From Candidatus Desulfofervidaceae bacterium (GTDB lineage: Bacteria > Desulfobacterota > Desulfofervidia > Desulfofervidales > Desulfofervidaceae), in contig JAGHCL010000017.1 in the NCBI GenBank assembly GCA_021160485.1, forward strand, positions 1-22,545: DNA of 22,545 bases, read 5' to 3'. The notes beneath the pieces are model-generated. The model ran no database searches, was not told where the DNA came from, and worked only from the letters and a program-made list of their open reading frames with translations. Positions 1 through 22,545 of the stretch are shown piece after piece. Each line of letters starts with the position of its first letter. Position 1 is the first letter of the stretch. The position numbers and the translations under genes were made by a program.

Positions 1-70
1 AAATATAGTCTAAACGTCTTTAACGGCTTTTTGCAGGAGTCTCATTTTTTTAGTAGTGCAAAATATGGAC

Positions 71-99
71 TTGACCAAAAGGAGGAGAAAGGTAATAAT
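71..99 (+). promoter_or_regulatory. Probable sigma70-type promoter of the sphingolipid-type operon
   Basis: TTGACC at 71-76 and AATAAT at 94-99 are separated by 17 nt, each matching 5 of 6 consensus bases. Transcription would start near 105, leaving a 5' leader of about 90 nt before the TTG start at 197. A Shine-Dalgarno-like purine run (81-92) lies inside the spacer and is not obviously used by any ORF. Positions 1-70 hold no gene that I can recognise. Confidence 0.55.
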
Positions 100-196
100 C
101 TTAATTGGTAAGGATCTTTGCGTTGAATAGGAATTGGGCAAAAACAGGAATAGCTTATTGGGTTTTCATTTTTGTTGAAGGACAGAGGATATCCTG

Positions 197-1168
197 TTGA
201 AGCAAATTTTGGTCACCGGGGCAACAGGGTTCATCGGCAGTCACCTCATTGAAGGGCTTCTCCCAAAAGGCCATGAAGTATATTGCCTGGCAAGAAATAA
301 AAAAAAGCTAAGATGGCTCCAAAACCTACCTGTGAATTTAGTCGTTGGTGATTGCCAAAATCTTGCTTCCCTTAACCTTCCTTCTGTTAGCGTTGTTTAT
401 CACTTGGCAGGTCTAGTCAAAGCCAAAAGCCCGGTTCATCTCTATCAAGCAAACTATCTAGGCACATTAAACTTGATTCGAGCTATTTTAAGGCAAAGAT
501 TGCCTTTAGAAAAGTTTGTTTTTGTCTCTACCCTAGCTGTTCATGGCAATCCCCAAGGAGAAATTATTACCTCTCAAGCCCCTCCCTGTCCTCTTACTCA
601 TTACGCTAAAAGTAAGTGGATGGCAGAACAGGCTTTACTGTCTCTAAAAGAACTTCTCCCTGTAATAATTTTCAGACCTACTGCCATTTATGGTCCAAGA
701 GACAAAGAGTTTTTAGAGTATATGCGTTTAGTTAAACATGGGTTTGCCCCTATATTAAATCCAAAAGGCACTTTAAGCCTCTGTTATGTAGCAGATTTGA
801 TCGAAGCATTGATGGCCGTCTTAGATAGAAATATTCCCAGCGGCAAGGTATTTCTACTTTCTGATGGCAAGGTTTATTCTTGGCAAACGGTTATTACGAC
901 GATGGCAAACATGTTAGGAAAACAACCCCTTTTAATAAAGGTGCCTAAACCTTTAACTTTATCTCTTGCTTTGGCTGCCGAATTTTATAACCATTTTGCC
1001 AAAGAACCTCTGATGTTTTCCCGAGATAAACTAAAAGAGGTCTTTCAAAAAACCTGGTTTTGTGATATTTCAGACGCACAAACTTTTTTGGATTTTCAAC
1101 CGAAATATAGTTTAAAAAAAGGAATGGAAATAACTATCAGGTGGTATCAACAACACAACTGGTTATGA
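197..1168 (+). CDS. NAD(P)-dependent extended SDR, probable ceramide reductase (CerR-like)
   Basis: A 323-aa extended short-chain dehydrogenase/epimerase-family protein. Seen directly: the N-terminal Rossmann motif TGATGFIG (residues 7-14), an acidic GD pair at 51-52, HLAG at 69-72, catalytic Ser111 in VST, and the Tyr136-x3-Lys140 pair in HYAKSK. It starts at a TTG with AGAGGA at 184-189, 7 nt upstream. The stop lies 7 nt before the next gene, a serine-palmitoyltransferase-like enzyme, so the two are surely cotranscribed. Known biology: in Caulobacter an epimerase-like SDR (CerR) supplies the keto-reduction step of bacterial ceramide synthesis. Inference: this gene does the same, reducing the 3-keto group of the sphingoid product. 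SDR membership is very secure, but substrate assignment rests on context; a sugar-nucleotide epimerase or sterol-type dehydrogenase remains possible. Confidence 0.85.
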   Translation: MKQILVTGATGFIGSHLIEGLLPKGHEVYCLARNKKKLRWLQNLPVNLVVGDCQNLASLNLPSVSVVYHLAGLVKAKSPVHLYQANYLGTLNLIRAILRQRLPLEKFVFVSTLAVHGNPQGEIITSQAPPCPLTHYAKSKWMAEQALLSLKELLPVIIFRPTAIYGPRDKEFLEYMRLVKHGFAPILNPKGTLSLCYVADLIEALMAVLDRNIPSGKVFLLSDGKVYSWQTVITTMANMLGKQPLLIKVPKPLTLSLALAAEFYNHFAKEPLMFSRDKLKEVFQKTWFCDISDAQTFLDFQPKYSLKKGMEITIRWYQQHNWL

Positions 1169-1175
1169 GGGGAAA

Positions 1176-2360
1176 ATGGATATTTTTGACAAATGTTTCT
1201 CTTTTAAGCAGCAGGTAGAAACGGTTAAAAGGGAAGGGAAGTATTTTTATTTTCGGAAGATTTCTTCTGCCCAAGGGCCAGAGGTTATTCTTAACGGCCA
1301 CCGCATGATTATGCTAGGATCTAACAACTACCTCGGGCTTACTGAGGACGCTCGCGTAAAGGAAGCCGCCATTGCTGCCATCAAAAAATACGGCACTGGC
1401 TGTGCTGGCTCTCGTCTTTTAAATGGTACAGTAGACATCCATGAAGCTTTAGAAGCACAGATTGCTTCTTTTTTTGGCAAAGAAGCCGCAGTTGTTTTTT
1501 CCACTGGGATGCAAGCTAATCTGGGTTGTATTCAGGCACTGGTTACCCAGGATAGTATCGCTATTCTGGATAAATTTGATCATGCCAGTATTATTGATGG
1601 TTGCCGTCTGGCCTACGGTGATTTCAAGCGTTATCCACATAATGACATGAAGTCTTTGGAACGAATACTAAAATGCCATCCAGAAAGAGGGAAACTTATT
1701 CTCGTGGATGGTATTTTTAGTATGGAAGGAGATTTGGCTAATCTGCCAGAAATCGTCTCTTTAGCCCGCAAATATGGGGCAAGAGTGATGGTGGATGATG
1801 CCCATGGCATTGGTGTAATGGGAGAAAACGGTAAAGGAACGGCTGAACATTTCCATCTGGAGAAAGAAGTAGATATTATTATGGGTACCTTCAGCAAGTC
1901 ATTGGCCACCATTGGTGGTTTTATTGCTGCAAGGAAGGATGTGGTAGAATATGTCAAGCACGTTGGTCGTGCCCTTCTCTTTAGTGCCAGTCTTGCACCT
2001 CCTTTAGTAGCAGCAGCTAGCACTGCTTTTAAAATTATAGAAGCTGAACCTGAAAGAAGAGAACAACTTTGGCGTAATGCCCATTTCTGGTTAAACGGTT
2101 TAAAAAGTTTGGGGTTTGACACAGGATACAGCACAACCCCTATTGTGCCTGTTATTATTGGCGAAGCAGATAAGACCTTTGAAATGTGCTATTATTTAGA
2201 AGAATATGGTGTTTTTGTCAGTCCAGTTGTCCCACCAGCTGTGCCTCCAGGTCGTGCCCTTTTACGCACAAGCGTTATGGCCACCCACACGCAAGAACAA
2301 TTAGAAAGGGCCCTGGATGCCTTTGCCCAAGCTGGGCGTAAAGCAGGTATTATCTCATGA
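1176..2360 (+). CDS. spt: Serine palmitoyltransferase-like alpha-oxoamine synthase (PLP)
   Basis: A 394-aa fold-type I PLP enzyme of the alpha-oxoamine synthase family, expected to condense an acyl-thioester with an amino acid. Visible features are GSNNYLGL (48-55), the glycine loop GTGCAGSRLLNGT (73-85), cofactor-stacking His136 in DHAS, Asp207 and His210 in VDDAHG, PLP Lys241 in TFSKSL, and Arg364 in the PPG-x-ALLR segment. The N-terminal YFYFR and the glycine loop followed by LNGT read like bacterial serine palmitoyltransferases (the Bacteroides type) rather than BioF, Kbl or HemA, whose loops differ. A strong GAGGGG ribosome site precedes the ATG. It lies between an SDR and a GNAT-like acyltransferase and overlaps the latter by 4 nt. 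No biotin genes are nearby, which argues against BioF. Serine plus acyl-CoA or acyl-ACP is the inferred substrate pair. Confidence 0.82.
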   Translation: MDIFDKCFSFKQQVETVKREGKYFYFRKISSAQGPEVILNGHRMIMLGSNNYLGLTEDARVKEAAIAAIKKYGTGCAGSRLLNGTVDIHEALEAQIASFFGKEAAVVFSTGMQANLGCIQALVTQDSIAILDKFDHASIIDGCRLAYGDFKRYPHNDMKSLERILKCHPERGKLILVDGIFSMEGDLANLPEIVSLARKYGARVMVDDAHGIGVMGENGKGTAEHFHLEKEVDIIMGTFSKSLATIGGFIAARKDVVEYVKHVGRALLFSASLAPPLVAAASTAFKIIEAEPERREQLWRNAHFWLNGLKSLGFDTGYSTTPIVPVIIGEADKTFEMCYYLEEYGVFVSPVVPPAVPPGRALLRTSVMATHTQEQLERALDAFAQAGRKAGIIS

Positions 2361-3502
2361 TAAAAATAGAACAAGTTACTACCAAAAGGCAGTGGTCTGA
2401 CTTTTTGCATCTTCCCTGGCGTATCTACAAAGATAATCCATACTGGGTGCCGCCTCTTTTAGACGATGTGGATTTTTGTTTAAATCCTCAGAAAAATCCC
2501 TTTTATCATCATGCACGGCGGGCATTGTTTTTGGCCTATAAAAACAGTCAGATTGTAGGTCGCATTGCTGCCATTGTGGATGAAAACTATAATGCATATC
2601 ACCATGAAAAAACTGGCTGGTTTGGCTTTTTTGAAAGCATACCTGATTTTGCCGTAACCAAAGCCCTTTTAGATAGTGCCCGAAATTGGGTATCCACTCA
2701 AGGAATGCAACTGTTTCGTGGGCCGGTTAATCCATCTACCAATGAAAGCTGTGGCTTACTGGTAGAAGGATTTGATGACTCTCCTTATTTTATGATGACT
2801 TATAACCCGCCTTATTATGCCGAATTTCTAGAAAAATATGGTCTGAAAAAGGCAAAGGATTTATTGGCCTATGAAATGTATTTACCCTTTGCTGACGGGC
2901 CTTTTAAGAGACTTGAAAAAATCGCCATCCGTATACAAAAACGTTATCCTTACTTATCTGTTCGGCACCTAAATATGAAAGACTGGGAAAATGAACTAAA
3001 ACGAGTGCAAGAGGTTTACAACAGTGCATGGGCTGAAAATTGGGGCTTTGTGCCTATGACAGAGGCCGAGATTGAAAAGATGGCCCAGCGGTTGAAACCG
3101 CTAGTAGTGCCTGAACTAGTCTGGCTAGCAGAAGTCAAGCAAGAGCCAGTGGCCTTCACGATGTTCCTACCTGATTACTTCCAAGCAATCAAGCATTTAA
3201 ATGGTCATTTTTTCCCTTTGGGCTGGTTAAAGTTTCTCTGGTATCGGCGTAAAATTACCAGAGTGAGGTCAGTTACTTTGGGCATAAAAAAGCAATATCA
3301 CTATACTGGTATTGTCCCTCTCTTCCTTTACCAAACGGGTCTTGCTTTAAAAAAATTTCCTTATCAAAAGCTAGAATTTTCTTGGATTTTAGAAGACAAT
3401 CTCCCCGTCCTCCGGCTGACAAAATTCATCCATGCCCGTCTAAGTAGGAGGTATCGAATATATGAAATACAAGCAGATAATTCACAGCCAATCGAATCAT
3501 GA
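2357..3502 (+). CDS. Large GNAT-like N-acyltransferase (YghO/bacterial ceramide synthase-type)
   Basis: A 381-aa soluble protein resembling the YghO-type GNAT-like proteins that include bacterial ceramide synthase (bCerS). The recognisable conserved stretch is at the N-terminus: W30-VPPL, then NPFYHHA (47-53), LFLAY and the VGRI strand (67-70) typical of GNAT folds, followed by RGPVNPSTNE (121-130) and the aromatic segment YNPPYY (149-154). No transmembrane helix is evident. The start ATG overlaps the spt stop by 4 nt, so the two are translationally coupled; only a weak AGCAGG lies upstream. Known biology: in Caulobacter this acyltransferase N-acylates 3-ketodihydrosphingosine. Inference: this protein completes a three-enzyme ceramide pathway with its two upstream neighbours. 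Family call is fairly confident, function moderately so. Confidence 0.7.
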   Translation: MIKIEQVTTKRQWSDFLHLPWRIYKDNPYWVPPLLDDVDFCLNPQKNPFYHHARRALFLAYKNSQIVGRIAAIVDENYNAYHHEKTGWFGFFESIPDFAVTKALLDSARNWVSTQGMQLFRGPVNPSTNESCGLLVEGFDDSPYFMMTYNPPYYAEFLEKYGLKKAKDLLAYEMYLPFADGPFKRLEKIAIRIQKRYPYLSVRHLNMKDWENELKRVQEVYNSAWAENWGFVPMTEAEIEKMAQRLKPLVVPELVWLAEVKQEPVAFTMFLPDYFQAIKHLNGHFFPLGWLKFLWYRRKITRVRSVTLGIKKQYHYTGIVPLFLYQTGLALKKFPYQKLEFSWILEDNLPVLRLTKFIHARLSRRYRIYEIQADNSQPIES

Positions 3503-3737
3503 TCTCTCTTATTAATTTTTCACAAACATCCTTTGCGATACCTCTGCTCAGTGCTCCCTGATAATATGTGAATTGAGCTTACAGCATTTATAGCGTTTAA
3601 ACTCAACAAATTTACAACAAACTTAATTTTAAAGAGTCCCTAACCTCAAAACCCGGTTCACGTTTTACACATCCACGCATCTATGCATTTACACCTTTTG
3701 GGGTTGCCAGAGAGATTAATATTTTGTATAAGGCCGC
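3503..3737. other. 235-bp intergenic region with weak hairpin and a promoter at its right end
   Basis: No credible ORF on either strand. It separates the sphingolipid-type operon from the Cys-rich gene. TTGAG (3573-3577) and CTCAA (3602-3606) can close an imperfect hairpin that contains the left half of the palindrome GTTTAAAC, but no U-tract follows, so a terminator cannot be claimed. A second tiny repeat, GCAT-CT-ATGC, sits at 3677-3686. Confidence 0.5.
3704..3732 (+). promoter_or_regulatory. Promoter abutting the Cys-rich gene start (possible leaderless mRNA)
   Basis: TTGCCA at 3704-3709 and TATAAG at 3727-3732 are exactly 17 nt apart, each 5/6 to sigma70 consensus. The -10 box ends only 5 nt before the ATG at 3738, so the transcript would begin at or next to the start codon. 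The only Shine-Dalgarno-like bases (AAGG) overlap the -10 itself. Confidence 0.55.
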
Positions 3738-4031
3738 ATGCTCAGGATAAATATTGGTAGCCCAAACACTTTGCAAAAAATCAAAGAGATTAGACTGACT
3801 CATGAATGTAAGCAATGCGCATTGTCTGGAGAGAGTTGCTGTCGCAGAGGAATAGAAAACAAATATAATGGAGTTATACTCCTTATCAATAAATTGTTAG
3901 GGGTAAAACTTCCTGCCCGAAGGCTTTATCCTGATGGATGTTATTTCTTGGGTCCTGAAAGGTGTATATTAGTAGCCAGAGAAATAATTTGTGTAGATTA
4001 TCTTTGCAGGCGGGGTCTTAGACCGGATTGA
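3738..4031 (+). CDS. Cys-rich CxxC/CC metal-binding protein (YkgJ-like), probably frameshifted
   Basis: A 97-aa protein with eight cysteines at 24, 27, 34, 35, 68, 76, 85 and 90. The order CxxC-x6-CC, then a GCYFL...C...C...C block, resembles the CxxCxxCC putative zinc/iron-chelating family typified by YkgJ. Its true role is unknown. The reading frame stops at 4029-4031, just after a run of four G at 4012-4015. Dropping one G opens the next frame without interruption to a stop at 4249-4251. The first part of that extension contains a helical, coding-like segment (VLDRIEHKKIVELQQIAGQE and onward), so the annotated end may be a sequencing error or a real lesion. The distal part of the extension is hydrophobic and may be fortuitous. 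It sits directly upstream of the ferredoxin/AOR pair, a possible metal-handling link. Confidence 0.6.
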   Translation: MLRINIGSPNTLQKIKEIRLTHECKQCALSGESCCRRGIENKYNGVILLINKLLGVKLPARRLYPDGCYFLGPERCILVAREIICVDYLCRRGLRPD

Positions 4032-4229
4032 ACATAAAAAGATAGTTGAGCTTCAACAAATAGCAGGACAAGAAATGGGCATCCTTTTTAATTTGCAAGA
4101 TAGAATTAAACAGAAGCTATTATCCTGTCATTTTAAAGGTCGACATTTTTTGTTTTTTAACCTTTATTTCGTAACTGCCTCAGGCTTATTTTCTCTTGTT
4201 TTTCTTTTTAAATTAACTATAATATCCTC
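4032..4229 (+). pseudogene. Out-of-frame continuation of the Cys-rich gene, then AT-rich promoter DNA
   Basis: In the frame shifted at the G-run 4012-4015 the sequence stays open from 4015 to a TAG at 4249-4251. The residues up to about 4125 (ending near DRIKQKLL) look like a charged helical C-terminus. The rest is hydrophobic and T-rich and overlaps the ferredoxin promoter, so the original protein may have ended earlier. No independent start codon with a ribosome site serves this segment. Confidence 0.45.
4196..4223 (+). promoter_or_regulatory. Perfect TATAAT box 6 nt before the ferredoxin ATG
   Basis: TATAAT (6/6) at 4218-4223 with a weak TTGTTT -35 at 4196-4201, 16 nt away. The ATG at 4230 follows after ATCCTC, with no Shine-Dalgarno. 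The transcript would start at about the A of the ATG, which suggests leaderless translation of the ferredoxin. Confidence 0.5.
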
Positions 4230-4631
4230 ATGTCTCATTTACGTGTCATAGATGCTGAAAGGTGTGTGGGTTGTCAACTGTGTATGTTCGCCTGCCACCG
4301 GCGTTTTGGCAAAGGAGGGTTGGGGAAATCGGCCATCTTTGTTCGTTCGCGTGGAGGGATGAGTCGTGGATTTACGGTAGTGGTGTGTCGAGCGTGTAAA
4401 GAACCACCTTGCGCTGCTGTTTGTCCAGTGGACGCTTTACGCGTACGGAAAGAAGGTGGTGTTATCCTTCAACCTCATAAATGCATTGGTTGCGGAAATT
4501 GTAAAGAGGCCTGCACTCTAGGAGCGGTCTTCTGGGACGAAGAGGAAAATAAGCCAGTTATCTGCATCCACTGTGGTTATTGTGCTCAGTATTGCCCACA
4601 TGGTGTGATTGCCTTAGTAAAAGAGGAGTAG
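4230..4631 (+). CDS. Ferredoxin with four [4Fe-4S] binding motifs (electron-transfer partner of AOR)
   Basis: A 133-aa polyferredoxin of the HycB/DmsB-like type. Sixteen cysteines form four groups: 12/15/18/22, 53/56/61/65, 85/88/91/95 and 112/115/118/122, enough for four [4Fe-4S] clusters. It has no signal peptide or Tat motif, so it is cytoplasmic. The next gene, an AOR-family tungsten enzyme, begins 3 nt after its stop, and its ribosome site lies inside the end of this gene. Such pairs are known for AOR-like enzymes, where the ferredoxin-like subunit carries electrons between the W/Fe-S catalytic subunit and a further partner. MSHLRV leading directly into the first cysteine motif makes the start secure even though no Shine-Dalgarno is present. 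Confidence 0.92.
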   Translation: MSHLRVIDAERCVGCQLCMFACHRRFGKGGLGKSAIFVRSRGGMSRGFTVVVCRACKEPPCAAVCPVDALRVRKEGGVILQPHKCIGCGNCKEACTLGAVFWDEEENKPVICIHCGYCAQYCPHGVIALVKEE

Positions 4632-4634
4632 CAG

Positions 4635-6386
4635 ATGTTAAATCATGACCCCCTTCAAAGGGTGCTTTATATAGATTTAACCCGGCGTAGCTTTCGAATA
4701 GAACACCGCCCTGACCTGTTTGAAAGGTATCTTGGGGGAGCCGGGGTTGCTAGCGCCCTTTTACTGGAGGAATGTCCAGAAGGAGCAGATCCGCTGGAAC
4801 CTGAAAACCCTATTATTTTCGCTGTTGGCCCTTTAGTAGGACTTTTCCCTATGGCTTCAAAAACCGTGGCCATGTTCAAATCTCCACACACAGGTAACCT
4901 TGGTGAAAGTCACGCTGGTGGTAGGAGTGCCGTAAGTATCCGCATGGCAGGTTACGGTGCCATTGTGATTAAGGGCGCAAGTGATATACCAGTTTACCTG
5001 ACTATCTTTAATGACAAAGTGCAATTCCATGATGGGCGCGCACTTTGGGGAATGCGAAGTGATTTTGCCGCTAGGGCCACACGTGAAAAGGAGTCAGGTT
5101 CAGGTATGCGCACTATTATGCGGATTGGTCTGGCTGGAGAACGTTTGGTGTCTTATGCCTGTGTCATTACTGAAACTTATCGCCATTTCGGCCGTTTAGG
5201 TCTAGGAGCAGTATTTGGGAGTAAAAAACTAAAGGCAATTGTCATTAGCGGTAAATCAAGCCTGCCTGTAGTAGATAGAAAGACCTATAAAAAGGCCTAC
5301 AACGACATTTTTCAGCAACTTTTAACCAAACCTTCTTTAAAAAAGTATCATGACCTAGGCACTTCTTTAAATATTTTACCTTTAAATAAGATATGTGCCT
5401 TGCCCACACGCAACCTTCAAAAAGCCTGTTTTGAACAGGCTGAAGAAATCTCTGGCGAACACCTAGCCGAAAACTATCTCGGGAGACGTATCGCCTGCAC
5501 CCATTGTCCAATTGCTTGTATCCATCTGGCCGCTTTAAGAGAACCTTATAAAGATGAACCTTATTTTTATAAAACAACATTCATTTCCTACGATTATGAG
5601 CTTATTTATGCCTTAGGAACAATGTTAGGCATTGGTAACTCCCGGGGATTAATGTATTTATTAAATGAAGTAGAAATCCTGGGCTTAGATGCAATCAGCA
5701 CTGGGGTCGTCCTGGCTTGGGTAACTGAGGCCTTTCAAAAAGGACTGATTACCGAAAAAGAGACAATGGGGTTGAAACCTGCGTGGGGCGATTATGAAAC
5801 CTATGTAGAAATAATGAAAAAGATTGTCTTACAACCAAATGAGTTTTATCAAGCTGTCGCTAAAGGCGCAGAATACGCCTCTGAGCTTTACGGAGGGAAG
5901 GAGTTTGCGCTAGCCTTTGGAAAAAATGAGATGCCCGGTTACCATACTGGATATGGAGGACACCTGACCTTTCTCACCGGTGCCCGTCATAGTCATTTGG
6001 ATTCAGCCGGTTATAGCTTTGACCAGAAATTTCTAGGTAAAGAAGTCCCACCCCCTGAAGATTACGCCAATCACCTCTTTGCTGAAGAATCTTACCGTCA
6101 GATTATTTCCTCTCTGGTTATTTGCTTTTTTGCTCGTGGAGTTTATAACTACCCTACGATCGAACGTCTTTTAAAAATTGCTGGTTTTGATTTTTCTGAA
6201 GAATCGTTAAAAGGACTAGGAGAGGAAATTCTTAAACAAAAATATCGCTTTAAATTTAGAGAAGGGTTTTCCTTGGATCAGCTTCGGATCCCCAAAAGAA
6301 TCCTGGAAACCATATCTCCGCATGGTAGGTTACAGGAAGAATTTATAAGAAAAGCAATTGCAGCTTATAAGAGACTCTTGAGCTAA
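4635..6386 (+). CDS. Tungsten-type aldehyde:ferredoxin oxidoreductase family protein (AOR)
   Basis: A 583-aa AOR-family catalytic subunit, expected to hold a tungsten- or molybdenum-bis-pterin and one [4Fe-4S] cluster and to oxidise aldehydes to acids or reduce acids. The N-terminus has YLGGAGVA (32-39) and HAGGRSAV (93-100), typical of AOR domain 1. Cluster cysteines are C288, C291 and C295 (CTHCPIAC) plus C497, matching the spacing in Pyrococcus AOR. The first pterin motif (DxxGLD in Pyrococcus) is E347-ILGLD. The second (DxxGLC) is degenerate here, SSLVIC at 492-497, keeping only the cysteine. A GAGGAG site overlaps the end of the ferredoxin gene. No pterin-synthesis genes are in the window. 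Substrate is unknown: aliphatic or aromatic aldehydes are both possible, and a relation to benzoyl-CoA reductase BamB-type enzymes cannot be excluded. Confidence 0.9.
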   Translation: MLNHDPLQRVLYIDLTRRSFRIEHRPDLFERYLGGAGVASALLLEECPEGADPLEPENPIIFAVGPLVGLFPMASKTVAMFKSPHTGNLGESHAGGRSAVSIRMAGYGAIVIKGASDIPVYLTIFNDKVQFHDGRALWGMRSDFAARATREKESGSGMRTIMRIGLAGERLVSYACVITETYRHFGRLGLGAVFGSKKLKAIVISGKSSLPVVDRKTYKKAYNDIFQQLLTKPSLKKYHDLGTSLNILPLNKICALPTRNLQKACFEQAEEISGEHLAENYLGRRIACTHCPIACIHLAALREPYKDEPYFYKTTFISYDYELIYALGTMLGIGNSRGLMYLLNEVEILGLDAISTGVVLAWVTEAFQKGLITEKETMGLKPAWGDYETYVEIMKKIVLQPNEFYQAVAKGAEYASELYGGKEFALAFGKNEMPGYHTGYGGHLTFLTGARHSHLDSAGYSFDQKFLGKEVPPPEDYANHLFAEESYRQIISSLVICFFARGVYNYPTIERLLKIAGFDFSEESLKGLGEEILKQKYRFKFREGFSLDQLRIPKRILETISPHGRLQEEFIRKAIAAYKRLLS

Positions 6387-15858: not shown

Positions 15859-16584
15859 ATGTCCCTTCTCAACTTGCAGAAGAGTTTATTTTACAGTATG
15901 ATCACTCAGGCAGGCCCAATGGCCAAGCTGGTTCTTATTGTTTTAACCTTGATGTCTGTATTTTCGTGGGCAGTGATTATAAACAGATGGTTGGTTTTCC
16001 GGAAAGCAAAGGCACAGGGGAAGGGGTTTTTAGATATTTTTTGGCGAACTGCCGATCTTAAATTTATATTCGCTGAAGCAAGAAGCTATGTTCAGTCCCC
16101 CTTATCCCTCATCTTTCAAGAGGCCTTCATGGAATTAAAAAAATGGGCAAAAGGGGGAGGAATTTTGTCAGAAACTGAAAAGAACGTTCTTTTTGAAAAT
16201 GTCACTGAAACCATGCGTAAAACCGCATATTGTGAACACTTACGCTTAAGACAGGGGCTTGCCTTCCTGGCTACCGTTGGGAACACAGCGCCCTTTGTCG
16301 GTCTTTTTGGAACGGTTTGGGGAATTATGCGGGCCTTCCATGATATTGGCTTACGGGGTTCGGCTTCTCTGGCTGATGTTGCTCCTGGTATTTCTGAGGC
16401 CCTGATTGCCACGGCGTTTGGTTTAGGGGCAGCTATTCCTGCAGTTATAGGATACAATTACTTCACTCAGCTTTTGATGGAACAGCGAACTGAAATGGAA
16501 ACGTTTATGACTGATTTTTTAAATCGGATAAGAAGACGTTACCTGGGGAAAATAACTGAGGAGAAAGAAAGTGAAGTGGTTTAA
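15859..16584 (+). CDS. tolQ: TolQ, inner-membrane proton-channel subunit of Tol-Pal
   Basis: A 241-aa MotA/TolQ/ExbB-family protein that with TolR forms the proton-driven motor energising TolA. Three membrane helices are visible: about 22-45, 133-158 (with TVGNTAPFVGLFGTVWGIM, the most conserved stretch) and 178-203 (SEALIATAFGLGAAIPAV). A cytoplasmic domain lies between helices 1 and 2. The start is fixed by AAAGGAG 5 nt upstream. The end overlaps tolR by 14 nt. First gene of a complete tolQRAB-pal-cpoB set; ybgC is not here. Confidence 0.95.
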   Translation: MSLLNLQKSLFYSMITQAGPMAKLVLIVLTLMSVFSWAVIINRWLVFRKAKAQGKGFLDIFWRTADLKFIFAEARSYVQSPLSLIFQEAFMELKKWAKGGGILSETEKNVLFENVTETMRKTAYCEHLRLRQGLAFLATVGNTAPFVGLFGTVWGIMRAFHDIGLRGSASLADVAPGISEALIATAFGLGAAIPAVIGYNYFTQLLMEQRTEMETFMTDFLNRIRRRYLGKITEEKESEVV

Positions 16585-16984
16585 TGACGATGACCACTTG
16601 ATGGCCGAAATTAACGTTACCCCGTTGGTAGATGTAATGCTCGTCTTACTTATCATTTTTATGATTACTGCCCCTATGCTTACCTATGGAGTAAAGGTAA
16701 ACTTGCCGACTACTACCTCCAAACCAGTGCCGCTAAAAAAAGAACCTCTCATAATTACAGTTGATGCGAAAGACAATATTTATATTGACCGGTATAAAGT
16801 GCCATTAAAAAACTTGAGGAAAAAGTTAAGACCTATTATTTCTGCACACCCTAGACGTAATGTGCTTTTACAGGCTGATAAAAAAGTGCCTTATGGGTAT
16901 GTGATGCTGGTAATGGGCGAGATTAAAGCTGCCGGAGTAGAAAATTTGGGATTGGTCACTAAACCTTTAGAGAAAAATAAATAA
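16571..16984 (+). CDS. tolR: TolR, ExbD-family motor subunit
   Basis: A 137-aa ExbD/TolR protein. After a short cytoplasmic N-terminus the motif INVTPLVDVMLVLLIIF places the proton-relay aspartate at D21 at the start of the single membrane helix (about 20-38). The periplasmic domain follows (45-135), with the IDRYKVPL and LLQADKKVPYGYVM stretches typical of the family. It starts at a GTG preceded by GAGGAG (16558-16563, 7 nt away) and overlaps tolQ by 14 nt. Confidence 0.95.
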   Translation: MKWFNDDDHLMAEINVTPLVDVMLVLLIIFMITAPMLTYGVKVNLPTTTSKPVPLKKEPLIITVDAKDNIYIDRYKVPLKNLRKKLRPIISAHPRRNVLLQADKKVPYGYVMLVMGEIKAAGVENLGLVTKPLEKNK

Positions 16985-16986
16985 TA

Positions 16987-17844
16987 ATGTTTGTCTTAAC
17001 CAACTCGTCTTTTAAGTCTTCTCTTTTGGTTTCTCTCCTCCTCCACTTTCTTTTGCTGACGCTGGTTTTTTTCACCACGACTGAACGCAAGCAGTATCTC
17101 AGCTTTTCGCCTGTTTATAAAGTAAGGCTGGTGGAGATACCGAGAAAAATCCGAGGCAAGGTTGTAAAGAAAAAGGGTATTAAGACCCCCTCAGCCAAGA
17201 CTAAAACACAGAAAAAACAGGTAAAGGTGGTCCCAGCTTCTAAGAAAAAAGCCAAACTTGCAGCGGCAAAAGCAAAAAAACAGGCCGCTACCAAAGCCAT
17301 CCCCCTTAAAAAGGCCAAAAAGAGGACCAAAGCAGCAGTTTCAAAGAAGACGGACGATAAAGAAATGAAGATGGTAGAAAGTAAAATAAAGGCATTGCAG
17401 AAGAAAGTGGAAGAAAGAAAGAAGCAGGAGGAAATAAAAAAAGAGGTTGCCCAGATTGCTGAAGAAGTACAGAAGGGGGCAGCCGGAGAGGTCATTGGTG
17501 AATATGCTGAAGGGGAACCAACTGGAAAAGGGATTGGCCTTGCCTTCCAACTTTATTATAATCAGGTTTGGGAAAAAATAAAAAGTAACTGGGTATTGCC
17601 TTCTTTTCTCATAAAAAAAGCAGAAAGGCTTGAAGCAATAGTTGTAATTAAAATTGCACGTGATGGTCATATTATAGAAAAACAATTTGAGGAAAAATCA
17701 GGTTATGTGCTTTTTGACCAATCGATAGAAGAGGCCTTAAAAAAATCAGACCCTTTACCTCCTCTACCCCAGGGTTACATTCAACCTTATCATGAAATAG
17801 GCATTCGTTTTCGCTGGACAAGGGAGGGAAAAGAAATAGGATGA
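16987..17844 (+). CDS. tolA: TolA, periplasm-spanning TonB-like protein
   Basis: A 285-aa protein with one N-terminal membrane helix (about 12-30) that carries the S16-x3-H20 pair typical of TonB/TolA helices used to contact the TolQR motor. A Lys/Ala-rich helical stalk follows (55-165), then a C-terminal TonB/TolA-like domain (about 183-280) with YYNQVWEKIKSNWVLP and the VVIKIARDGHI strand. The stalk is shorter than in E. coli TolA (421 aa). The ribosome site is weak, and the gene starts 2 nt after tolR. It overlaps tolB by 4 nt. Position in the operon decides TolA over TonB. Confidence 0.88.
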   Translation: MFVLTNSSFKSSLLVSLLLHFLLLTLVFFTTTERKQYLSFSPVYKVRLVEIPRKIRGKVVKKKGIKTPSAKTKTQKKQVKVVPASKKKAKLAAAKAKKQAATKAIPLKKAKKRTKAAVSKKTDDKEMKMVESKIKALQKKVEERKKQEEIKKEVAQIAEEVQKGAAGEVIGEYAEGEPTGKGIGLAFQLYYNQVWEKIKSNWVLPSFLIKKAERLEAIVVIKIARDGHIIEKQFEEKSGYVLFDQSIEEALKKSDPLPPLPQGYIQPYHEIGIRFRWTREGKEIG

Positions 17845-19106
17845 AAAAGATAAGCATTTTAATTTTATGGCTTTTTCTTTGGGTAAGTTTGGGATGGACT
17901 CGGGTTTATATCAATATTGACGCCCCAGGTCAAGAAAGAATGCCCATTGCCATAAGTACATTTATTAGTAAAGGCGACCCTCAATTAGGGCTTAGGGCCC
18001 AGACTATTTTAAAAAAGGATTTGGATTATACAGGTCTTTTTTCCATCCTCAGTCCAGAAACCTTTTTGGAAGAAAAACCTACCCTAGAAGTTGATTTTAA
18101 AAAGTGGCAGCTAATCGGTGCTTATCTTTTGATAAAGGGCAAAACCGAAGTAAAAAACGATCTTGTCTATCTAGAGCTGGTGCTGTACGATGTGCGCAAG
18201 GGTCTTCAACTTCTTGGTAAACGTTATAAAGGGACTCCACGAGATATCCGTTATATGGTTCATAAATTTGCTGATGCTATGATGGAGGTTTTAACCGGTG
18301 AACCCGGTATCTTTCAAACCAAAATTGCCTTTGTCTATGCAAGTAAAACCAGAAAAGAAATCTATCTAGCCGATTTTGATGGTTATCATCCTAGAGCTTT
18401 GACTAGATTTCGCAGTATTTGTCTAAGTCCGAAGTGGCACCCTAAAGGAGATAAACTTCTCTTTACAAGTTATAAAAGAGGTAAACCAGACGTGTATTTA
18501 GTGGACTTAAAGCAAAGAAAGGCTATAAGACTTATTCATTACCCTGGCCTAAACATTGCGCCGGCATGGTCACCAACTGGCGATAAAATTGCTGTCACAT
18601 TGAGCAAAACAGGAAAGCAGGGAATTTACTTGGTAGATAATAAGGGAAAAATAATAAAATCTCTTGTGCTTTCTTCTGGCATTAATGTCTCTCCAGCTTG
18701 GTCACCGGATGGAGGAAAATTGGCCTTCGTTTCGGATCGGAGTGGAAGCCCACAAATCTATGTTTTAGATTTAAGCTCAAATAGAATAGAAAGACTTACT
18801 TTTGAGGGTCATTATAATACTTCTCCGGCTTGGTCACCTAAGGGGGATTTCATTGTATATTCAGGTTTAAAAGATGGACATTTCCAATTATTTATGATAA
18901 AGTCTGATGGGAGTATAATAAAACAATTGACATATAATAATACAAATCATGAAAGTCCAAGCTGGTCACCAGATGGTCATTTCATTGTTTTCAGCCAAGA
19001 TGGAAAAATTTGTATCTTACGGTTGGGGGACGGAGAAATTTTTCCCATCGTGGACTTGCCAGGAAAACAGACCCAACCGAGTTGGTCTCCTAGATTAAAT
19101 AAATGA
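17841..19106 (+). CDS. tolB: TolB, periplasmic beta-propeller protein
   Basis: A 421-aa secreted protein. A Sec signal peptide is visible at 1-19 (MKKIS followed by a hydrophobic core). The TolB N-terminal alpha/beta domain covers about 22-155. A six-bladed propeller follows, with PD40 repeats centred on the SPxWSPxG motifs at W199, W243, W287, W331, W375 and W415. The last blade is short, as in other TolB proteins, where the strand is completed by the N-terminal part. It binds Pal and, in E. coli, TolA. It overlaps tolA by 4 nt (ATGA) and precedes pal by 14 nt. Confidence 0.95.
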   Translation: MKKISILILWLFLWVSLGWTRVYINIDAPGQERMPIAISTFISKGDPQLGLRAQTILKKDLDYTGLFSILSPETFLEEKPTLEVDFKKWQLIGAYLLIKGKTEVKNDLVYLELVLYDVRKGLQLLGKRYKGTPRDIRYMVHKFADAMMEVLTGEPGIFQTKIAFVYASKTRKEIYLADFDGYHPRALTRFRSICLSPKWHPKGDKLLFTSYKRGKPDVYLVDLKQRKAIRLIHYPGLNIAPAWSPTGDKIAVTLSKTGKQGIYLVDNKGKIIKSLVLSSGINVSPAWSPDGGKLAFVSDRSGSPQIYVLDLSSNRIERLTFEGHYNTSPAWSPKGDFIVYSGLKDGHFQLFMIKSDGSIIKQLTYNNTNHESPSWSPDGHFIVFSQDGKICILRLGDGEIFPIVDLPGKQTQPSWSPRLNK

Positions 19107-19120
19107 TAAGGAGGAAGGGT

Positions 19121-19828
19121 ATGAAGAGAGAGAATTGGTTAATTTTAATTTTGGCAGTGGTGTTTATTTTCCCCATGGCCTGTGCAAAGAAGCAAGTAGT
19201 TGTTCCGTCGGCAGTGAGTGAACAACCAGCAGCACCGAAGGCTGAAGCAGAAAAAGCGATTACCGTAACCGGTGAAAAAGAAGAGGGCGCAGTAGAAGGA
19301 CTAGAAGAAAAAATTAGTGAGGAGGAGTTGGCAAAACAGGAAAAGATGAAACGGGAAGAAATTTTGAAGCAAGAGATTGCTTCCTTTGAGAACGAAGATA
19401 TTTATTTTGATTTTGATAAATATAACATTCGGCCTGATGCGGCAGAAGTATTAAAAAGGAAAGCTGAATGGTTGAAGCAACATCCCAATGTGCACATTCT
19501 TATTGAAGGTCACTGTGATGAGTGGGGTAGTGAGGAGTATAACCTGGCCTTGGGTGAGAGAAGAGCAAATAGCACTAGAGAATTTTTGATCAATTTAGGT
19601 GTCAATCCCGAGTGCGTCTCCACCATTAGTTATGGAGAAGAAAGACCTACTGTTGTTCCTCCTGCCTATTGTGAGAATGTAAGACAGTTTTTACTTAACC
19701 GGGGCTTAAGACCAAATCATGCACCTGTTTCCGTTACCGGCACAAAGATTACTCTTGAAATGATTAACACTTGCGAATCTGCCTGGGCTAAAAACAGAAG
19801 GTGCCACTTCGTCGTGGTAAAATATTAA
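19121..19828 (+). CDS. pal: Pal, peptidoglycan-associated lipoprotein with internal insertion
   Basis: A 235-aa OmpA-C-domain lipoprotein that tethers the outer membrane to peptidoglycan. An ATG 18 nt upstream is in frame, but AGGAGG (19109-19114) 6 nt before ATG 19121 fixes the start. The signal peptide ends at FPMAC (lipidated Cys21), and the residue after it is Ala, fitting outer-membrane sorting. A charged linker spans 40-90. The OmpA-like domain holds IYFDFDKYNI (94-103), IEGHCDEWGSEEYNLALGERRA (128-149) and SYGEERP (170-176). Odd: between SYGEERP and the closing CESAWAKNRR (218-227) about 40 residues are inserted, including two extra-long loops with a Cys at 184, where most Pal proteins have only some 5-10 residues. 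Confidence 0.93.
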   Translation: MKRENWLILILAVVFIFPMACAKKQVVVPSAVSEQPAAPKAEAEKAITVTGEKEEGAVEGLEEKISEEELAKQEKMKREEILKQEIASFENEDIYFDFDKYNIRPDAAEVLKRKAEWLKQHPNVHILIEGHCDEWGSEEYNLALGERRANSTREFLINLGVNPECVSTISYGEERPTVVPPAYCENVRQFLLNRGLRPNHAPVSVTGTKITLEMINTCESAWAKNRRCHFVVVKY

Positions 19829-19937
19829 CAACAGCAAAGGTGCGAATAAAACAGCAGCGAAGATTACATTGATTGGTGACCAAGTAGTAACTGTGACTAC
19901 TGATAAAGGTAATACTGTTTATGCAATCCTAGCGTGA
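19821..19937 (+). pseudogene. Coding-like fragment without start codon between pal and cpoB
   Basis: In the frame +1 relative to pal, 38 codons are open from 19821 to a TGA at 19935-19937. The translation has a regular beta-rich pattern (KITLIGDQVVTVTTDKGNTV, then YAILA). It has no ATG or GTG start and no ribosome site, and it directly continues from the pal end after a one-base shift. It may be a lost C-terminal extension of pal, a remnant of another gene, or chance. I do not recognise the family. Confidence 0.35.
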
Positions 19938-20003
19938 TTTTTAGAAGTTGTAAAATAGGCGTTAAATTAGCCCCAAGATTTCAGATTTAAGGATTCTTGA
20001 AAG

Positions 20004-20852
20004 ATGAAAAAGATTGCATTCTTTGCAATATGTGGGTTGTTATTTTTTGCCAGTTGTGCCACCCAACAGGACTTGACTTTATTAGAACAACACATCATTA
20101 ACTTAAATGACCGGGTTACCAAACTTGAAAAATATCAGAGGGTGGATTTTAAAAACAGGCTGAGATTATTAAATCAAGAAATTTCCTCATTGCAGAAACG
20201 TCTTTCCACCCTCCCTTCACGTCAAGCCGATTTGTTGGTTCAGATAGGAGAATTAGAAAACAAAATAAGAGAATTGGCTGGAAAGGTTGAAGAAAACACC
20301 TATCATCTAAATAAACTGGAGCAAGAGATAGCAAATACGGGAACTGAAAGAGAAAATTTGAAGAAGCAGTTAACCGAACTTGAGGCAAAACTTCAAACTG
20401 AAAGTGTAAAGCTGGCAGAAATAGAGAAAAAACTAGGTAGTCTTGAAAAGCAACTCACAGCACCCCCACGAAAAATAAAACAAGAACAGAATTTATATCA
20501 AGAAGGACTAACTCTTTACCGTCAGAAGAATTATCGCAAAGCGAAGGCAACTTTTACACAATTTCTCAAACTTTATCCCAAATCCTCTTTGGCCGACAAT
20601 GCCCAGTTCTGGCTGGGAGAAATATATTTTATCAACAAAAGATACGATGAAGCTATCTTGGCTTATCAGAAAGTCATCAAAGATTATCCCAAAAGTAACA
20701 AAGTCCCTAGTGCGTTGTTTAAACAGGCACGCGCCTTTGCCTTATTAGGAGACAAAACCACAGCCAAGATTCTCTATCAGCAGTTAATCAAAAGATATCC
20801 GCGAACAGAACAAGCTATCATGGCAAAAAAGGAACTGCAGAAGCTAAAATAA
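20004..20852 (+). CDS. cpoB: CpoB/YbgF, Tol-Pal-associated periplasmic TPR protein
   Basis: A 282-aa exported protein coordinating Tol-Pal function with septal peptidoglycan synthesis in E. coli. A signal peptide with a lipobox-like FASC (Cys18) suggests that here it is a lipoprotein, unlike the soluble E. coli protein. A long coiled coil rich in Leu/Glu/Lys heptads runs from about 22 to 150, followed by three TPR-type repeats (about 165-280: LYRQKNYRKAKATFTQFL, IYFINKRYDEAILAYQKV and the last pair ending LQKLK). The coiled coil is longer than in E. coli. A purine stretch AAGGA lies about 11 nt before the ATG. Last gene of the tol-pal operon. Confidence 0.9.
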   Translation: MKKIAFFAICGLLFFASCATQQDLTLLEQHIINLNDRVTKLEKYQRVDFKNRLRLLNQEISSLQKRLSTLPSRQADLLVQIGELENKIRELAGKVEENTYHLNKLEQEIANTGTERENLKKQLTELEAKLQTESVKLAEIEKKLGSLEKQLTAPPRKIKQEQNLYQEGLTLYRQKNYRKAKATFTQFLKLYPKSSLADNAQFWLGEIYFINKRYDEAILAYQKVIKDYPKSNKVPSALFKQARAFALLGDKTTAKILYQQLIKRYPRTEQAIMAKKELQKLK

Positions 20853-20990: not shown

Positions 20991-22493
20991 CTACCTGATA
21001 ACAATGTTTTTATTGGTGCGTAACAAATGTACGGCACAGGCAAGACAGGGATCAAAAGATCTTACTATACGCACCACTTCCACTGGGTTTTCAGGGTTTG
21101 GCACTGGGGTGCCAAGAAGGGCCTGTTCAATGGGACCTAATTGGCCTTTATCATCCCGAGGTGAAGCGTTCCAAGTAGTAGGAACTACACACTGATAATT
21201 GGCAATTTTGTGATTCTGAATGACAATAAAGTGCCCCAAGGCCCCACGGGCAGCTTCAGATAGACCCATACCTTCTCCCTTTTCAGGTACATCTACCTTC
21301 AAGTAATGGGGTGCTTTAAAATCAAGCTGTTTCACCCATTCGGCCAAGATATTAGCCACACACCATGTTTCTTCTGCTCTGGCAATGTGTCGCCCAAGGG
21401 TGGAAAAGGCCTTATCACCTAGGTCTCTAAATCGAACTGGTTTATCCTCAGAAACACCTAAAAAGCGATTAGCGTGTTTGCTCAAAACAGGATTAGTAAC
21501 CCACATTCTGGCTAAAGGTCCAACTTCATGAGGTAAACCAGCATAGCGAGGTGCTTTAATATAAGTATAGGCAGAAGGTTTACCTAGCTGGACTTCTGTT
21601 TTTCCTGTCATAGGTTTTAATCCACTGGTATTATCAGCATACCAAGAATATTTCACATCCTCTACAATCTTTTCTGGGTCTAAAGGTTTATCTTGACCAT
21701 TGGTATAAACGCCAGGTTTAAATAAAAATTCTGTGCGTTCATCGTTTAATGGAAAGACGCCATAACTCAAGACATTCTTACATCCTACTCCCGTTTTAAA
21801 ACACTCTGGATAAACCTTTGCTATCGCATAAACTGTCGGTAAATATTCATTGTCAATAAATGCTTTGACTTCTTCCAACCGCCATAGAAATCCTGGAACG
21901 GCGTCAGGAGTTAAAAGTTGCGTTTGTCCTCCCACCACTATGCCGTGACAATGAGGAGCTCTACCTCCTACCATGGCTACCATCTCCTGAGCAATGGTCT
22001 TAACCTCTAAAGCTCGTAAATAACTCTTTACCGCTTTTTCATTAGTCTTTGGATCAAGCTTATAAACACCTTTTCCGTCATAGCGAGGGATAAAAGGAGG
22101 AACATCAGGGCCTTTAACAAAATCCAATGCCGCAAGGTGATAAAAATGTAGAATGTGGTCATATAACCAATGTGCGCCTAAAGTTAGATTACGCATGATG
22201 CGGCCATTAGTAGGTGGCCTAATTCCAAAGGCATCTTCTAAAGCCGTTGCAGAAGCCACAGCATGGTCAATTGGACACACACCACAAATCCTTTGTGTAA
22301 TTTGCGTGGCATCACGGGGATCCCTTCCCCGCAAAATAATCTCCATTCCTCTGAACAAAGTGCCGGAACTCCAGGCATTAATCACTTTATCTCCTTGCAA
22401 TTCCACTTCCACCTTCATGTGCCCTTCTATCCTTGTGATAGGGTCAATAATCACCCTTCGTGGGTGAATTTGTTTGGGTTTTGCTCCTGCCAT
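20991..22493 (-). CDS. [NiFe]-hydrogenase large subunit, group 1-like
   Basis: A 500-aa catalytic subunit that splits or makes H2 at a Ni-Fe(CN)2CO centre. The N-terminal L1 motif RICGVCPIDHA gives Ni/Fe ligands C70 and C73, and RIEGHMK (21-27) is the usual N-terminal signature. The C-terminal L2 motif DPCLACAVH gives C483 and C486 and ends at H489, leaving an 11-residue tail (490-500) to be removed by a maturation protease. An upstream in-frame ATG exists 36 nt earlier, but GAGGAGG (complement of 22499-22505) 5 nt before ATG 22493 fixes the start. The sequence is most like group 1 uptake (membrane/periplasmic) enzymes. The small subunit with its Tat signal is expected just beyond the right edge; no protease gene follows it. 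Confidence 0.95.
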   Translation of the reverse strand: MAGAKPKQIHPRRVIIDPITRIEGHMKVEVELQGDKVINAWSSGTLFRGMEIILRGRDPRDATQITQRICGVCPIDHAVASATALEDAFGIRPPTNGRIMRNLTLGAHWLYDHILHFYHLAALDFVKGPDVPPFIPRYDGKGVYKLDPKTNEKAVKSYLRALEVKTIAQEMVAMVGGRAPHCHGIVVGGQTQLLTPDAVPGFLWRLEEVKAFIDNEYLPTVYAIAKVYPECFKTGVGCKNVLSYGVFPLNDERTEFLFKPGVYTNGQDKPLDPEKIVEDVKYSWYADNTSGLKPMTGKTEVQLGKPSAYTYIKAPRYAGLPHEVGPLARMWVTNPVLSKHANRFLGVSEDKPVRFRDLGDKAFSTLGRHIARAEETWCVANILAEWVKQLDFKAPHYLKVDVPEKGEGMGLSEAARGALGHFIVIQNHKIANYQCVVPTTWNASPRDDKGQLGPIEQALLGTPVPNPENPVEVVRIVRSFDPCLACAVHLLRTNKNIVIR

Positions 22494-22505
22494 TCTGTCC
22501 TCCTC

Positions 22506-22545
22506 TTTCATTTTTATAAAAAAACGCAATCAAACTGATATATAT
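22506..22545 (-). other. Window edge upstream of the hydrogenase large subunit
   Basis: Forty AT-rich bases with no recognisable coding. On the minus strand it would be either the gap after a small-subunit gene or a promoter region; too short to decide. Confidence 0.3.

Follow-up and report, generated by a model that had tools for sequence, protein, structure and literature searches.

The window analysed here is a stretch of 22,545 nucleotides from a Candidatus Desulfofervidaceae bacterium, and it makes up an entire contig (G000:C197, 1-22545) of a 1.55 Mb genome (G000) that is 81% complete. Desulfofervidaceae are thermophilic sulfate reducers, and the lineage is known as a heat-loving partner in the anaerobic oxidation of methane. 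Near the start of the window lie three genes for an extended short-chain dehydrogenase/reductase (SDR), an alpha-oxoamine synthase resembling the serine palmitoyltransferase (SPT) Spt, and an N-acyltransferase of the bCerS/YghO family (Table 1). The trio very probably represents an operon for the backbone of a (dihydro)ceramide. Ceramide is a membrane lipid familiar chiefly from animals and plants, and gene sets of this sort have been described in many bacteria. An earlier note on this DNA, made from the sequence alone, had read the three as ceramide genes, and the synthase trees and the homology of the acyltransferase to YghO of Escherichia coli BL21(DE3) support that reading, the reductase being its weakest link.

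The spacing in the open reading frame (ORF) listing was 7 nt between the SDR and the synthase and -4 nt between the synthase and the acyltransferase, and the ORF coordinates confirmed the packed three-gene run over positions 197-3502 that the earlier note had described. Read by eye, an ATGA stop/start overlap at 2357-2360 joins the synthase and the acyltransferase, and the purine-rich stretches AGAGGAT and GAGGGG precede the starts of the SDR and the synthase, respectively. The run had also been placed behind one promoter. A sigma-70-like candidate does lie upstream of the SDR, but it is a weak match, and the scan of positions 1-5000 returned 13 promoter-like sites against 10.0 +/- 3.1 in shuffled sequences. 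As this count does not clearly exceed that of shuffled sequence, the scan is no evidence by itself. Bases upstream of position 1 are unreadable because the window is the entire contig.

Table 1. Genes of the trio and promoter candidate in the window.
Feature	Position	Strand	Basis and remarks
CerR-like extended SDR (NAD-dependent epimerase/dehydratase family)	197-1168	+	TTG start, 323 aa; PF01370, 111 bits
Spt-like alpha-oxoamine synthase, predicted serine palmitoyltransferase	1176-2360	+	394 aa; NCBIfam, 3a2b match, trees, motifs
bCerS/YghO-family N-acyltransferase, predicted ceramide synthase	2357-3502	+	381 aa; BL21 YghO homology, synthase linkage
Weak sigma-70-like promoter candidate, TTGACC-17-AATAAT	71-99	+	10/12 matches, low confidence

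The synthase groups with serine palmitoyltransferases

Among the NCBIfam families, the synthase scored highest with the Bacteroidetes-type SPT family NF047600 (533 bits), followed by the BioF/Kbl family TIGR01825 (429 bits), glycine C-acetyltransferase (416 bits) and BioF (399 bits). The best solved structure was the SPT of Sphingobacterium (3a2b; E 1.4e-123, 416 bits, 51% identity), and the next were a BioF/Kbl enzyme of Thermus (311 bits) and the SPT of Sphingomonas (297 bits). Alignment with 3a2b and BL21 Spt revealed the SPT-type stretches GCAGSRLLNG and PPAVP in the synthase, and its stretches TFSKSLA, DHASIIDG, DDAH and PPAVPPGRALLRTS aligned with both proteins. These stretches cover the pyridoxal phosphate lysine and the catalytic His/Asp/Arg region, which are conserved.

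A tree of 88 rows, built by a quick method, was divided into an SPT side of 70 rows and a BioF/Kbl side of 18 by a branch of 0.64 with a support of 100 in the Shimodaira-Hasegawa-like approximate likelihood ratio test (SH-aLRT). The three SPT references all lay on the SPT side, as did every one of the 63 acyltransferase-linked synthases entered, and the window synthase lay there outside the Rhodobacteria SPT branch. A careful tree of 22 hand-chosen rows placed the window synthase together with three SPTs, those of Sphingobacterium, Sphingomonas and BL21, and split it from BioF/Kbl at 100/99. The alpha-oxoamine synthase tree that the earlier note had proposed as a check thus sets the enzyme with characterised SPTs and apart from BioF/Kbl.

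Ten genomes were searched for bioA: that of the window, four others of the family (G001-G004), one of the same order (G005) and the further relatives G009, G012, G015 and G025. The gene was found over cut-off in four of them (G002, G003, G009 and G015), all of which have another synthase ~1.5 kb or less away from it. The other six (G000, G001, G004, G005, G012 and G025) gave one synthase each, which is that of the cluster; a looser search counted two synthase matches in G001.

The acyltransferase and the reductase

Searches with the acyltransferase at up to E 10 returned no Pfam family except a below-cut-off match to EF1_GNE; no NCBIfam family was found, and no convincing solved structure was related to it (best E 0.25). 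Along its full length the protein shows homology to BL21 YghO, with 36% identity over 381 columns. YghO is listed as the counterpart of CC_1154 (PMC9386255), which is required for dihydroceramide in Caulobacter (PMC11324152). The kinship with bCerS that the earlier note had proposed is supported by this match, in which BL21 proteins stood in for those of Caulobacter. An alignment of 36 sequences, the BL21 and Caulobacter proteins not among them, had 24 invariant columns.

The genomic setting of the family was followed in 80 named loci, selected from 582 that had been confirmed. A synthase scoring >150 bits was present within the stretch of 55 of the 80 loci, and of 36 of the 51 loci flanked by 2.5 kb or more on either side. 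In 44 of the 80, an SDR was found as well as the synthase, the threshold of >60 bits for the SDR being a loose bar.

Second copies of the acyltransferase were seen in G002 (L063:5976-10812) and G005 (L065:2-6700), beside AMP-ligases, LolA-like proteins and DUF1302 proteins; the neighbours were assigned by Pfam in G002 and by similarity to G002 in G005. This setting suggests that the acyltransferase family also serves a different pathway of acyl transfer and export in these two genomes.

The SDR matched the BL21 SDR with 29% identity and 126 bits; for comparison, a second SDR in the window gave 71 bits and E. coli RfaD 65 bits. The BL21 SDR is listed as the counterpart of CC_1164 (PMC9386255), and the SDR gene adjoins spt in relatives. 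The protein is predicted, mainly by linkage, to be a 3-oxo-(dihydro)ceramide or 3-oxosphinganine reductase, and it is the least certain assignment of the three. CerR is periplasmic in Caulobacter (PMC11087976); the Rossmann motif of the window SDR, read by eye, begins no more than 10 residues from the N-terminus.

Gene order in relatives and distribution in the phylum

The order SDR, synthase, acyltransferase on one strand is kept in all five family genomes examined (the window's own and G001-G004), so the arrangement is not due to chance, and the back-to-back order cerR-spt-bcerS given in the earlier note holds beyond the window. The 4-nt overlap between synthase and acyltransferase is present in the window, G002 and G004. 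Clustering found no flanking genes around the trio common to G001-G004, and the trio is therefore the conserved unit. Outside the family, the trio and its order are both kept in G015, and G025 has the SDR divergently oriented relative to the rest. G009 carries the synthase and the acyltransferase at a contig end, and G012 has three places in the same order, with an opposite-strand ORF put at the synthase position by the simple ORF caller. In G005 the SDR and the synthase are adjacent near the end of contig C24, and the three acyltransferase copies of that genome are on contigs other than this one. Carriage of the trio by viruses was rejected, since three viral-contig stretches matched a pattern and none encoded a relative.

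In a sample of 197 genomes of the phylum, strong SPTs were defined by a score of at least 500 bits, a cut set at a gap in the scores. The acyltransferase was present in 50 of the 197 genomes and a strong SPT in 21, 19 of which also carry the acyltransferase; by our own reading, the two lie within ~3 kb of each other in 17 of these 19. Among the genomes without a strong SPT the acyltransferase occurred in 31 of 176 (Fisher p 3e-11, kinship not corrected). What the analysis shows is the identity of the three genes by homology, the placement of the synthase in the trees, the conserved order and the linkage.

Sphingolipid genes in anaerobic Desulfobacterota have already been published, and the trio is a known kind of system (PMC11334938). 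That survey reports Spt-like proteins in 1271 of 5069 Black Sea metagenome-assembled genomes (MAGs) from 38 phyla, including Desulfobacterota, and finds the three genes often clustered, yet many Spt-like genes not beside the other two (PMC11334938). Within the paper library searched, no report on sphingolipids in Desulfofervidus was found. What is added here is a candidate gene for the head group and a testable product, inositol phosphoceramide.

Elsewhere in the window, a 97-aa cysteine-rich protein (CxxC...CC) without a Pfam or NCBIfam match is encoded just 3' of the trio (3738-4031). A 4Fe-4S ferredoxin-like protein and, after it, an aldehyde:ferredoxin oxidoreductase are encoded at 4230-6386. 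A cell-envelope run at 15859-20852, judged by eye from the translations, presumably encodes TolQ, TolR, TolA, TolB, Pal and a CpoB/YbgF-like protein. The large subunit of a NiFeSe-type hydrogenase, with a cysteine read near its C-terminus, lies at 20991-22529.

Proposed pathway and alternative readings

From these data we infer the substrates, the order of the steps, where in the cell they take place and that the lipid is made at all. Spt would condense a fatty acyl thioester with serine to 3-oxosphinganine, or might use alanine on the way to a 1-deoxyceramide. The acyl donor is probably acyl-CoA or an acyl group on a housekeeping acyl carrier protein (ACP), because no AcpR/AasR pair was seen nearby. 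The YghO/bCerS-family enzyme would then N-acylate 3-oxosphinganine, and the CerR-like SDR would reduce the 3-oxo group before or after acylation, the order of these two steps being disputed (PMC11087976, PMC11324152). A head group may be attached by a PAP2_3 enzyme resembling Aur1, the gene for which lies outside the window in the same genome. Since lpxC is present in all 10 genomes searched, the ceramide product would likely reside in the outer membrane beside lipopolysaccharide (LPS), and a sphingolipid in place of LPS is made unlikely. If the trio works as predicted, the membranes of this lineage would be partly sphingolipid, which would affect how lipid biomarkers of hot sediments are read.

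A number of observations weigh against the ceramide reading. The synthase stayed below the NF047600 cut-off (640 bits) and passed no family cut-off; as none of the phylum genomes (197) and just one of 14 controls reached the NF047600 cut-off, that cut-off may be narrower than SPT function. Two of the genomes without bioA, G000 and G005, are 81-82% complete, so its absence from them is weak evidence. The SDR is just 29% identical to its BL21 counterpart and belongs to a superfamily of many functions, and no residue examined in the synthase settles serine versus alanine. The acyltransferase family is also wider than the sphingolipid loci: 25 of the 80 loci have no synthase of >150 bits (some owing to a short stretch), further copies occur in G001, G002 and G005, and the 31 phylum genomes with the acyltransferase and without a strong SPT point the same way. 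In at least nine of these 31, by our own reading, a lower-scoring synthase lies on the acyltransferase contig within ~17 kb, and the 500-bit cut therefore undercounts SPT. The acyltransferase tree likewise mixes spt-linked and unlinked rows, with 11 changes of linkage against a shuffled mean of 19.0 (0 of 500 shuffles as low).

That the synthase is BioF or Kbl, with an unrelated SDR and acetyltransferase as neighbours, appears highly improbable. The enzymes share a fold family, the identities to E. coli Kbl (40%) and the Thermus BioF/Kbl enzyme (42%) are about those to the SPTs of Sphingomonas (41%) and BL21 (43%), the NCBIfam scores for BioF and glycine C-acetyltransferase reach 399-416 bits, and E. 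coli BioF forms a long branch in both trees. Against this stand the position of the synthase on the SPT side at 100/99, its closer identity to the Sphingobacterium SPT and its GSRLLNG and PPAVP stretches, the separate bioA-linked synthase in four genomes, and the retention of the trio in family members without bioA over cut-off. BioF and Kbl were rejected on the trees together with the bioA-linked paralogues, in a search that covered bioA but not the Kbl partner tdh. It is also improbable, if less so, that the acyltransferase acts on another amine, such as an aminosugar or a lyso-lipid, and is merely co-located with spt. In the stretches read, members of its family do also occur apart from spt, and the G002 copy stands with AMP-ligase, LolA-like and DUF1302 proteins, as the G005 copy does with their homologues; the 4-nt overlap with the synthase in three genomes, the linkage across many phyla and the need for the homologue CC_1154 in Caulobacter dihydroceramide synthesis (PMC11324152) speak against mere co-location.

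A product other than a serine-derived ceramide has to be considered as well, namely 1-deoxyceramide from alanine or a sulfonolipid from cysteate. This is unlikely but has a real share of the probability, and it overlaps with the preferred reading, in which alanine is a possible substrate. Black Sea 1-deoxyceramides and sulfono-1-deoxyceramides may come primarily from Desulfobacterota and/or Bacteroidota (PMC11334938), and a related synthase uses cysteate (PDB 28eh). The window synthase, however, scores 416 bits to the serine SPT 3a2b and 260 bits to the cysteate acyltransferase 28eh, and most of its motif stretches agree with 3a2b, the FSASM/FSASL position being an exception.

A candidate gene for the head group

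The earlier note had taken the neighbourhood as a hint of where to look for head-group genes. None was recognised in the window itself, and the best candidate lies on another contig. A head-group gene beside the trio throughout the family was also rejected, as clustering gave no conserved neighbour in G001-G004. In other relatives (G005, G015, G025 and G009), a PAP2_3 gene adjoins spt or bcerS. The G005 gene is on the other side of the synthase from the SDR and is cut by the contig end, and in G012 a PAP2_3 match with a stop inside it adjoins bcerS. PAP2_3 was found in the stretch of 16 of the 80 named acyltransferase loci. These spt-adjacent genes are a concrete head-group candidate outside Bacteroidetes and Rhodobacteria, and a partial literature search on the head-group theme found no report of a linkage between PAP2_3 and spt or bcerS.

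The window genome has a PAP2_3 gene on contig G000:C39 (L115:5857-6741; PF14378, 84 bits) that is unlinked to the trio; the sole further match found there was a weak PAP2 match (30 bits). The protein groups with the spt-adjacent PAP2_3 of G005 (99 SH-aLRT; 57% identity over 211 residues) and is likely its orthologue. A second set, K2, is present in G001-G005, and the copies of G001-G004 lie beside genes for proteins of ~1,030 and ~350-380 aa. K2 is not the orthologue of the spt-adjacent G005 gene. It groups with the bcerS-adjacent PAP2_3 of G009 (98 SH-aLRT) and so stays a second candidate in the relatives, and linkage alone therefore singles out neither set. A profile of 12 PAP2_3 proteins aligned weakly, but over almost its whole length, with AUR1, the inositol phosphoceramide synthase of fungi (E 0.02, positions 8-272 of 288); two bacterial lipid phosphatases scored better (E 2e-4 and 0.009) but aligned with the C-terminal part alone.

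For inositol, the window genome has a myo-inositol-1-phosphate synthase (G000:C189) and a CDP-alcohol (cytidine diphosphate-alcohol) enzyme (G000:C72) with 164 bits to archaetidylinositol phosphate synthase (cut-off 180), 127 bits to phosphatidylinositol (PI)-phosphate synthase (cut-off 170) and 30 bits to PgsA. Tentatively, and with the balance tilting against it, the Desulfofervidaceae might make inositol phosphoceramide: the trio would supply ceramide, the C189 and C72 enzymes an inositol phospholipid, and the C39 PAP2_3 enzyme would transfer the head group. Counting against this, the PAP2_3 gene adjoins a helicase gene and not the trio in the family genomes, and PI-phosphate synthase was over cut-off in none of the 10 genomes searched. 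The inositol-1-phosphate synthase gene also lies near a contig-end fragment resembling di-myo-inositol-phosphate synthase (L217:3910-6586; NF041135, 262 bits over 172 residues). It may instead serve this thermoprotectant, a route that needs no sphingolipid, which weighs against inositol phosphoceramide. Across the phylum, inositol-phosphate synthase occurs in 19 of the 21 genomes with a strong SPT and in 95 of the 176 without (p 0.0009, kinship uncorrected). The use of inositol is ambiguous, given the nearby thermoprotectant-like fragment, a synthase that is common in the phylum and the result for PI-phosphate synthase. Sphingolipids occur in hot sediments at Milos, mostly at 40-80 °C; their head groups are phospho-inositol, -ethanolamine, -glycerol and phosphatidic-acid-like, and they are ascribed to bacteria in general, likely thermophiles (PMC5572230). 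Were inositol phosphoceramide made here, such bacteria would be candidate sources of the phospho-inositol sphingolipids of 40-80 °C sediments.

Comparison with known ceramide systems

In Caulobacter crescentus, aasR, cerR, acpR and spt are CC_1165-CC_1162 and cerS/bcerS is CC_1154 (PMC9386255). By homology, compared through the BL21 counterparts listed in that paper, the same three backbone steps are encoded in the window. In contrast to Caulobacter, the window acyltransferase is part of the spt operon, the SPT falls outside the Rhodobacteria branch, and the trio has no AcpR/AasR beside it. The earlier note had pointed out this lack of acyl-carrier genes. The window, which reaches 196 bp upstream of the trio and was the part of the genome searched for them, holds no recognisable AcpR or AasR gene. 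Their absence is nothing special: among the 80 related acyltransferase loci, one had AasR and none AcpR (short ACPs may be missed). For each of the three proteins E. coli BL21(DE3) has a homologue (43% identity for Spt, 36% for YghO, 29% for the SDR) in yghO and aasR-epi-acpR-spt; its cluster differs in having AcpR, AasR and, next door, lptFG, and in a divergent yghO.

For the head group, the step proposed here is that of fungal AUR1 and of its Bacteroides thetaiotaomicron homologue BT_1522, which is needed for inositol ceramide (PMC9246714). For the PAP2_3 protein of the window genome this role is putative; its gene has a helicase gene as neighbour, on a different contig from the trio, and lipid phosphatases score better than AUR1.

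Plasmid 1 of the actinomycetotal Rubrobacter radiotolerans (L075:8707-14299) likewise has the three genes adjacent, with no ACP annotated beside them. Their order there is synthase, acyltransferase, SDR, followed by an LTA-synthase-family gene. Clade B of the Black Sea Spt-like proteins, many with bCerS and CerR nearby and Desulfobacterota among their MAGs, has the same gene set, in the same broad phylum and in an anaerobic setting (PMC11334938). That survey covers a marine water column, whereas the Desulfofervidaceae trio stands in one fixed order.

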